Virus record (IMG/VR): IMGVR_UViG_3300020455_000764
Span: 1 to 20,747 of that record
Direction: 5' to 3' (one strand)
From: a virus
Length of the DNA stretch: 20,747 nt
Shown: one piece after another, positions 14,159-14,689 of the stretch
How positions within the stretch are numbered: the first letter of the stretch is position 1
Layout: every line of letters starts with the position of its first letter
Made by a program: the position numbers and the translations under genes
Notes under the pieces: generated by a model
Seen by the model: only the letters and a program-made list of their open reading frames with translations
What the model was told of the DNA's origin: nothing
Database searches by the model: none

Positions 14159-14190
14159 TTGATTTTTTGAGAAAAATACTTATATATATT
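14159..14190 (+). promoter_or_regulatory. Candidate sigma70 promoter for hsp20
   Basis: TTGATT (14159-14164) lies upstream of a TATATATATT run (14181-14190) that offers a -10 box with 16, 18 or 20 nt spacing. Transcription would begin near 14196, right at the first hairpin of the leader. No sigma32-type boxes were seen. The exact -10 is ambiguous because of the alternating TA run. Confidence 0.4.
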
Positions 14191-14195
14191 AGTAT

Positions 14196-14251
14196 GAGAC
14201 GCCGATTCGGGTCTCTTAAACGACTCGCTTTTGGAAAGGAGACAAATAATG
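14196..14251 (+). promoter_or_regulatory. ROSE-like RNA thermometer candidate in the hsp20 leader
   Basis: Two hairpins fill the leader. The first pairs GAGAC (14196-14200) with GTCTC (14211-14215), with an inner CCG/CGG. The second pairs CUC-G-CUUU (14224-14231) with AAAGGAG (14235-14241) around a UGG loop, with G14227 bulged. This buries the entire Shine-Dalgarno, which lies 7 nt before the ATG at 14249. The 5' arm contains UCGCU (14225-14229), an exact match to the U-U/C-GCU core of ROSE thermometers, which control small heat-shock genes in Alpha- and Gammaproteobacteria. GUCUCUU (14211-14217) could also pair with the Shine-Dalgarno in an alternative fold. The structure is predicted by eye. 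Confidence 0.6.
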
Positions 14252-14689
14252 AACACCAAAAGTCTATCATTTTGGTCTGATTTCAGACCTCACACAATAG
14301 GGTTCGATAATATATTCGATAATCTCGACTATCTACGAACTGTACCAAATAACAATTATCCCCCATATAATATCAGAAAGATCAATGACACTCATTGGGC
14401 TGTTGATATCGCATTGGCAGGATTCTCTAAAGAAGATATACAGGTTGAACATAAACCAGATGAAAATTCTCTGGTTATTAAATCTGTAATGTCTAAGGAA
14501 GAGAAGGATGTTGAAGATAATGACGGCATTCTACATAGGGGTATATCTAAACGCCAATTCACCAGATCGTTCAGTATCGCTGATGATGTACTAGTAAAAA
14601 GTGCAAAATTAGAGAACGGAATGTTGTCTGTCGAATTAGAGAGAATTATACCTGAAGAGAAGAAACCTAAGATTATTGATATTAAATAG
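14249..14689 (+). CDS. Hsp20 (alpha-crystallin family) small heat-shock protein
   Basis: A 146-residue small heat-shock chaperone that holds unfolding proteins in a refoldable state. The alpha-crystallin domain spans about 44-133: it starts INDTHWAVDIALAGFSKEDIQV and ends AKLENGMLSVEL, where the family motif is A-x-x-x-NGvL. A C-terminal I-x-I-type motif (IIDI, 142-145) would anchor oligomers. The frame is open upstream from a TTG at 14231, but the ATG at 14249 has AAGGAG 7 nt upstream and is clearly the start. It is the only supported plus-strand gene, divergent from the CobT-like gene. Hsp20 is common in marine T4-like phages and may help capsid or tail assembly; here its leader suggests heat-controlled translation. 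Confidence 0.94.
   Translation: MNTKSLSFWSDFRPHTIGFDNIFDNLDYLRTVPNNNYPPYNIRKINDTHWAVDIALAGFSKEDIQVEHKPDENSLVIKSVMSKEEKDVEDNDGILHRGISKRQFTRSFSIADDVLVKSAKLENGMLSVELERIIPEEKKPKIIDIK

Follow-up and report, generated by a model that had tools for sequence, protein, structure and literature searches.

A probable ROSE-type translational switch in the hsp20 leader of T4-like and jumbo phages

The 5′ leader of hsp20 in a marine T4-like phage was found to contain two hairpins that are likely to form a ROSE-type translational switch. The leader lies in IMG/VR record IMGVR_UViG_3300020455_000764 (20.7 kb; "the window" hereafter means the whole stretch of 20,747 nucleotides), which is T4-like by its gene content, including an SbcC/gp46-like recombination protein, a CobS-like ATPase, and a phage peptidase. 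We file the element as a phage-borne variant of known ROSE, as the structural criteria are met; the Rfam cut-off is not met, and thermal function is inferred. Far from being restricted to this phage, the element accompanies hsp20 widely among T4-like and jumbo phages. The features of the window are as follows.

14181–14188, + strand: box TATATATA, putatively a T4-late-type promoter and differing from TATAAATA at one position; unchanged across the four closest sequences
14194–14241, + strand: entire element, delimited by its match to the phage covariance model R1 (27.4 bits; E = 1.2e-5 in a search of 490 kb)
14196–14215, + strand: hairpin I, GAGAC-G(bulge)-CCG-AUU-CGG-GUCUC; supported by covariation, a swap test, and a retained bulged G
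14216–14223, + strand: variable 8-nt linker from hairpin I to hairpin II; diverged among the nearest relatives
14224–14241, + strand: hairpin II, of the thermosensing type, in which CUCGCUUU pairs with AAAGGAG; matched by ROSE_3 and R1
14249–14689, + strand: hsp20, encoding an IbpA-like small heat-shock protein of 146 aa (Pfam HSP20, 2.1e-14; phrog_432 Hsp20, 2.2e-42)

Both hairpins lie within 14194–14251. In hairpin I, GAGAC (14196–14200) and CCG flank the bulged G14201 and pair with CGG-GUCUC (14208–14215). In hairpin II, CUC (14224–14226) and CUUU (14228–14231) flank the bulged G14227 and pair with AAAGGAG (14235–14241); the anti-Shine-Dalgarno (anti-SD) arm CUCGCUUU thus contributes C/U/C and C/U/U/U, and the whole SD AAGGAG (14236–14241) is paired. 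The ROSE core UCGCU (14225–14229) stands opposite AGGAG (14237–14241). The AUG at 14249 follows the SD by 8 nt and opens the Pfam HSP20 gene; transcription of this stretch as its leader is inferred. An earlier sequence-only reading had described the SD as paired with CUC-G-CUUU around one bulged G, with a UCGCU fit to the ROSE core and hsp20 as the downstream gene, and all of this was correct in sequence and position. Three marks of a ROSE-like thermometer are therefore present: the U(U/C)GCU arm, a bulged G opposite the SD, and at least one upstream hairpin, namely hairpin I. The fourU criterion was not met, as no UUUU pairs with AGGA in the window leader. The motif Y-G(bulge)-C-Y / R-G-G is common to both hairpins of all elements, and hairpin I resembles a second copy of the ROSE core.

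The Rfam model ROSE_3 (RF02523) matched the window over its full length (1–69) at 33.8 bits (E = 8.8e-6) in a permissive scan of 151 bases, in which the next-best Rfam family reached E = 0.11. A scan with the Rfam ROSE models had been proposed in the sequence-only reading; it produced this match, which remained below the ROSE_3 gathering threshold of 43 bits. At gathering threshold, Rfam returned nothing in the window or in 20 loci, and the family is therefore visible solely by sub-threshold search. The hsp20 leader was the sole ROSE_3 match within the window. None of 50 related phage contigs exceeded the gathering cut-off, and their best ROSE_3 matches (E about 1e-7 to 1e-4) were located at hsp20 leaders, apart from a few that preceded other genes. 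Pseudomonas controls gave one ROSE_3 match per genome (44.6–60.4 bits), and 14 control genomes gave none at E 0.01.

R1 was built from 17 phage leaders, with the window and its close relatives left out of the seed. It yielded 82 matches, those of seed members being by construction, and nearly all lay at leaders of hsp20, dnaK, or small uncharacterised proteins. In the reverse test, this phage-trained model recovered Pseudomonas ibpA leaders with E values down to 1e-9, as well as another proteobacterial IbpA leader (L380), of which it matched the last two hairpins. E. coli ibpA was not found by R1.

Relatives of hsp20 were gathered by protein similarity alone (80 loci), and both hairpins were present in nearly all of them. 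Plain MAFFT alignment (A1) misaligned the stems of these divergent leaders, and an anchored test and the covariance model were used instead. For the lower stem of hairpin I, the anchored test gave an average of 5.67 of 6 pairs, versus 3.88 ± 0.14 (maximum 4.30) when partners were swapped between phages. Among 65 distinct R1 matches, 95.3% of cells were paired versus 76.1 ± 0.8 in shuffles, and the covariation score was 0.511 versus 0.176 ± 0.010 in shuffles and at most 0.148 in slid controls. This 65-element alignment was fitted to R1 and is thus biased towards the model, a bias that the anchored test does not share.

All 11 pairs of hairpin I showed two-sided compensatory changes in the R1 alignment of phage elements. 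Among the nearest relatives, the basal pair 14196–14215 reads C-G in L004, against G-C in the window. The sequence-only reading had recognised this GAGAC/GTCTC hairpin and overlooked its bulged G14201, a position at which the unpaired G is kept in 63/65 distinct elements. In hairpin II, 97.8% of cells were paired across the same elements, two pairs showed two-sided changes, three of six pairs never varied, and a 20-nt block was invariant among the nearest relatives. Because its 3′ side is the SD, variation in hairpin II is small and its covariation thin. Its unpaired G is kept in 59 of the 61 distinct elements having a letter at that column, and the U(U/C)GCU arm is conserved in the 65. Lack of conservation or covariation of this arm in homologous phages had been named in advance as grounds for refutation; the arm is conserved and hairpin I covaries, so the refutation did not materialise. 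The ROSE-type identity put forward earlier is thus backed by an independent model match, the architecture, the partner gene, and covariation across phages.

Some clades depart from the standard form. In one (L065, L072, L074, L075, and L076), A replaces the bulged G of hairpin II (CUUACUU/AAGGAG), and in L065, L074, and L075 the bulge of hairpin I is likewise A (GGGUACC/GGGCCC), as if both hairpins change in concert. In another (L017, L020, L021, L024, L026, and L030), CUGUCU, not CUUGCUU, stands opposite AAGGAG, and this variant arm falls outside the U(U/C)GCU definition.

The element precedes hsp20 in most related phages, including pelagiphages, many T4-like cyanophages, PA5oct, and freshwater jumbo phages. 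At 17 of 22 named phage hsp20 loci, R1 gave E below 1e-3: the pelagiphages Mosig, HTVC008M, and HTVC115P; the cyanophages S-PM2, Syn33, Syn19, S-ShM2, S-SSM4, S-RIM8, ACG-2014b, ACG-2014f, P-RSM1, P-TIM40, and S-CREM1; and C48C1, AG-345-P14, and PA5oct. The P-SSM7 leader matched weakly (0.08), with the motif visible by eye, SCTP-2 has a degenerate form at best, the element is seemingly absent from the S-TIM61 locus, and S-CAM7 could not be judged. In the Prochlorococcus phage P-HM2 (L332), the annotated hsp20 start lies upstream of a ROSE-like leader seen by eye (GUGUCGCCUUCGGGGACA...ACUCGCUAUAAUAGGAG..AUG), and the start is therefore probably misannotated. Seven of nine complete named phage genomes (141–440 kb) contained a single R1 match, located at hsp20.

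When 2.9 million viral contigs were scanned with a DNA pattern that took no account of genes, at least 120 loci were found. Among the 120 matches listed, 113 had an SD and an ATG, and the other seven were chance matches without a start. Downstream of these 113 were 104 hsp20 genes, one dnaK, and eight truncated ORFs or unassignable cases, so that every classifiable ORF among the matches listed was hsp20 or dnaK. In bacterial genomes, the pattern mainly found chance matches in GC-rich coding DNA, and those with an SD and an Hsp20 ORF were solely Pseudomonas-type ibpA by sequence. Given the ROSE-like fold and the presence of the element in most relatives examined, these phages probably tune chaperone synthesis to temperature or protein damage at translation. 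This is apparently the most widespread candidate phage RNA thermometer. The hsp20 gene is a cyanophage core gene without a settled role, for which host protection or capsid scaffolding has been cited (PMC7674155). A conserved translational switch in isolated phages such as S-PM2, Syn33, and S-ShM2 would tell when Hsp20 is needed and make its role testable.

The putative late box of the window ends 5 nt upstream of the element, and a weak sigma70-type match (TTGAGA-17-TAGTAT) lies in the same stretch. A TATAAATA-like box was present in 48/63 distinct upstream stretches versus 5.8% of random stretches, and in 45/63 distinct elements it stood 1–6 nt before hairpin I (first model base). A highly similar late-promoter consensus has been identified in silico for S-PM2 (PMC2988020). 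By inference, a T4-late-type promoter probably drives transcription of the leader; the RNA 5′ end would then fall at or just inside hairpin I, and this hairpin would stand at the transcript 5′ end. The start site is unmapped. A start downstream of 14224 had been named in the sequence-only reading as a second ground for refutation, and the late-promoter-like box lies upstream of the element, not downstream of that position.

Folding at several temperatures, also proposed in the sequence-only reading, gave a predicted opening that depended on the length folded. With 24 nt of coding sequence, the SD unpaired probability in the window was 0.05 at 10 °C, 0.16 at 25 °C, 0.44 at 37 °C, and 0.59 at 42 °C; for the leader alone it rose only from 0.02 at 10 °C to 0.11 at 42 °C. 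Across 49 phage leaders, predicted SD exposure was 0.13 at 10 °C and 0.30 at 45 °C, compared with 0.36–0.48 for control ribosome sites and 0.37–0.49 for upstream-shuffled leaders at the same temperatures. Phage hsp20 SDs were thus more hidden than control SDs (0.13 vs 0.36 at 10 °C, p = 2e-5). When only the leader was considered, 8% of dinucleotide shuffles hid the SD equally well. For a 91-nt stretch, the minimum free energy structure at 37 °C was a non-ROSE fold with the SD in a loop, a close competitor that needs the coding sequence of this phage. For these reasons, thermodynamics alone is weak evidence. Absolute exposure values are rough, since nearest-neighbour rules omit the non-canonical pairs of ROSE. 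Within 14223–14263, codons 3–5 contain CCAAAAG, to which CUUUUGG of the anti-SD arm can pair, freeing the SD. This alternative gains weight with temperature, depends on the window phage's own coding sequence, and is not general; much of the window's predicted thermal response rests on this competition.

The short ROSE-like element of Pseudomonas ibpA has been shown experimentally to be a thermometer (Krajewski 2013, PMC3669281), in which hairpin II, unlike hairpin I, melts (PMC3669281). Because the homologous hairpin II melts, the phage switch is inferred to open on warming; its heat response rests on folding and homology and has not been shown. At low temperature, hairpin II would hold the SD against the UYGCU arm, and ribosomes could not bind, a block that is itself inferred for the living cell. 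The bulged G may leave the helix marginally stable, such that warming would open it and Hsp20 would be made. Hairpin I may be a stable aid to folding or to the stability of the mRNA, and possibly a binding site. Several points count against a thermosensing switch: the ROSE_3 score below the gathering cut-off, the thin covariation of hairpin II, the small opening of the leader alone, and the narrow temperature ranges met by marine hosts.

The signal could also be protein aggregation. E. coli IbpA represses its own mRNA via the 5′UTR, for which both R93 and an aromatic side chain at position 34 are needed (PMC10474464). The closest NCBIfam model to the window Hsp20 was IbpA (3e-31, below its cut-off), and the protein has R at the R93 position and Y at the Y34 position, as expected of a self-repressing small heat-shock protein. 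At the R93 position, phage Hsp20s have R in 139/150 and K in 11/150; position 34 is Y or F in 150/150. Since the leader-binding arginine of IbpA is kept, aggregate sensing is a serious alternative signal: phage Hsp20 would bind its own ROSE leader and repress itself, and unfolded phage or host protein, for instance during bulk capsid synthesis, would draw Hsp20 away and allow translation, temperature being secondary. The late-type promoter box fits this timing, and hairpin I is strongly kept although it is dispensable for thermosensing in Pseudomonas (PMC3669281). However, the arginine could persist by descent alone, the 11 phage Hsp20s with K, a substitution that abolishes activity in E. coli IbpA, still keep the element, and binding data are lacking. 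We regard this explanation as possible rather than probable, and it is compatible with thermosensing, not exclusive of it. Only tentatively, we suggest that T4-like and jumbo phages keep the ROSE leader on hsp20, and in some cases on dnaK, mainly to sense intracellular aggregate load through Hsp20 self-repression and so to time chaperones to late virion synthesis. Phage Hsp20s retain the residues through which the leader could act as an aggregate sensor.

It is rather unlikely that the hairpin merely slows translation or makes the mRNA more stable, without regulated opening. The modest opening of the leader alone up to 42 °C and stable ocean temperatures would suit this, and mRNA protection by a 5′-terminal hairpin is possible, as discussed in PMC3669281. 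Yet a plain blocker needs no unpaired G in the same place in both hairpins, and the tight association with chaperone genes would remain unexplained. A two-state fold in which GUCUCUU of hairpin I (14211–14217) competes for the SD had been raised as a possibility in the sequence-only reading, and its complementarity to AAGGAGAC is present in the window; we rejected this riboswitch-like fold as very improbable, as its ensemble probability was ≤0.005 at 10–50 °C and the pairing is broken in L003 and L004, which keep both hairpins. That a stretch complementary to the SD resembles ROSE merely by chance, for which only the equally hidden shuffles speak, is excluded by covariation, genome-wide specificity, and bidirectional model matches; that the element is more than this is settled by comparative evidence, not by thermodynamics.

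Returning to the ROSE-type switch, the phage leader resembles the Pseudomonas ibpA ROSE_3 in its two hairpins within about 60 nt, its U(U/C)GCU arm, which pairs with the SD and leaves one G bulged, its unpaired AUG, its hairpin I core GAUGCCGA..UCGGGUC, for which the Rfam structure shows a bulged G, and the small heat-shock gene downstream. It differs in falling below the Rfam cut-off, in being AU-rich, in having a phage late-type promoter box where Pseudomonas has a sigma32 promoter, and in being carried by phages of cyanobacteria and Pelagibacter, where it sometimes precedes dnaK. Classical ROSE elements (Bradyrhizobium hspA, RF00435; E. coli ibpA, RF01832) have the SD-hairpin motif and target gene family in common with the phage element, whereas they have three or four hairpins rather than two. 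Gamma-proteobacterial IbpA self-repression through the ibpA 5′UTR (PMC10474464) likewise combines a ROSE-type leader with a small heat-shock protein bearing R93 and Y34, as in phages; it is known there and hypothetical for phage Hsp20. The element and hsp20 are inferred to descend together from the same stock as bacterial ibpA/ROSE.

Phage RNA thermometers on record are lambda cIII, SP-beta blyA (fourU), and a gut Caudoviricetes sigma70 gene (fourU) (PMC11182007). As inferred for phage hsp20, a temperature-responsive RNA structure controls a phage gene in each, but they are not ROSE, do not control chaperone genes, and have no reported wide conservation. In the open-access literature, we found no description of a phage ROSE or phage hsp20 thermometer, whether in T4-like phages, for which the sequence-only reading was aware of no case, or otherwise, and no experiment on any such phage leader. 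As far as that literature shows, this would be the first phage ROSE element.

A near-perfect Pseudomonas-type ROSE_3 with an ibpA-like gene occurs in the 22.6-kb record of Pseudomonas phage Y7 (L210, OQ572409). The record is unverified and may be host DNA, and we gave its leader no weight.

ROSE-type elements also precede small proteins of 85–101 aa without a Pfam or PHROG family in three freshwater phage contigs. These ORFs look phasin-like by eye, an identity that Pfam and PHROGs did not confirm.

L082, 801–862: ROSE-type element before a small protein
L084, 691–749: ROSE-type element before a small protein
L372, near 1485–1560: ROSE-type element before a small protein

In several freshwater large-phage contigs, the element stands before dnaK, followed by hsp20, which extends ROSE-type leaders to dnaK. 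To our knowledge, ROSE control of dnaK (Hsp70) is unusual.

L083, 4353–4303, − strand: ROSE-type element 5′ of dnaK, in a 524,565-base contig
L060, 994–1048: ROSE-type element 5′ of dnaK; hsp20 next, without its own element
L066, 978–1030: ROSE-type element 5′ of dnaK; hsp20 next
L067, 888–937: ROSE-type element 5′ of dnaK; hsp20 next
L077, 931–977: ROSE-type element 5′ of dnaK; hsp20 next

In L066, L067, L077, and L083, the hsp20 that follows dnaK has an element of its own.
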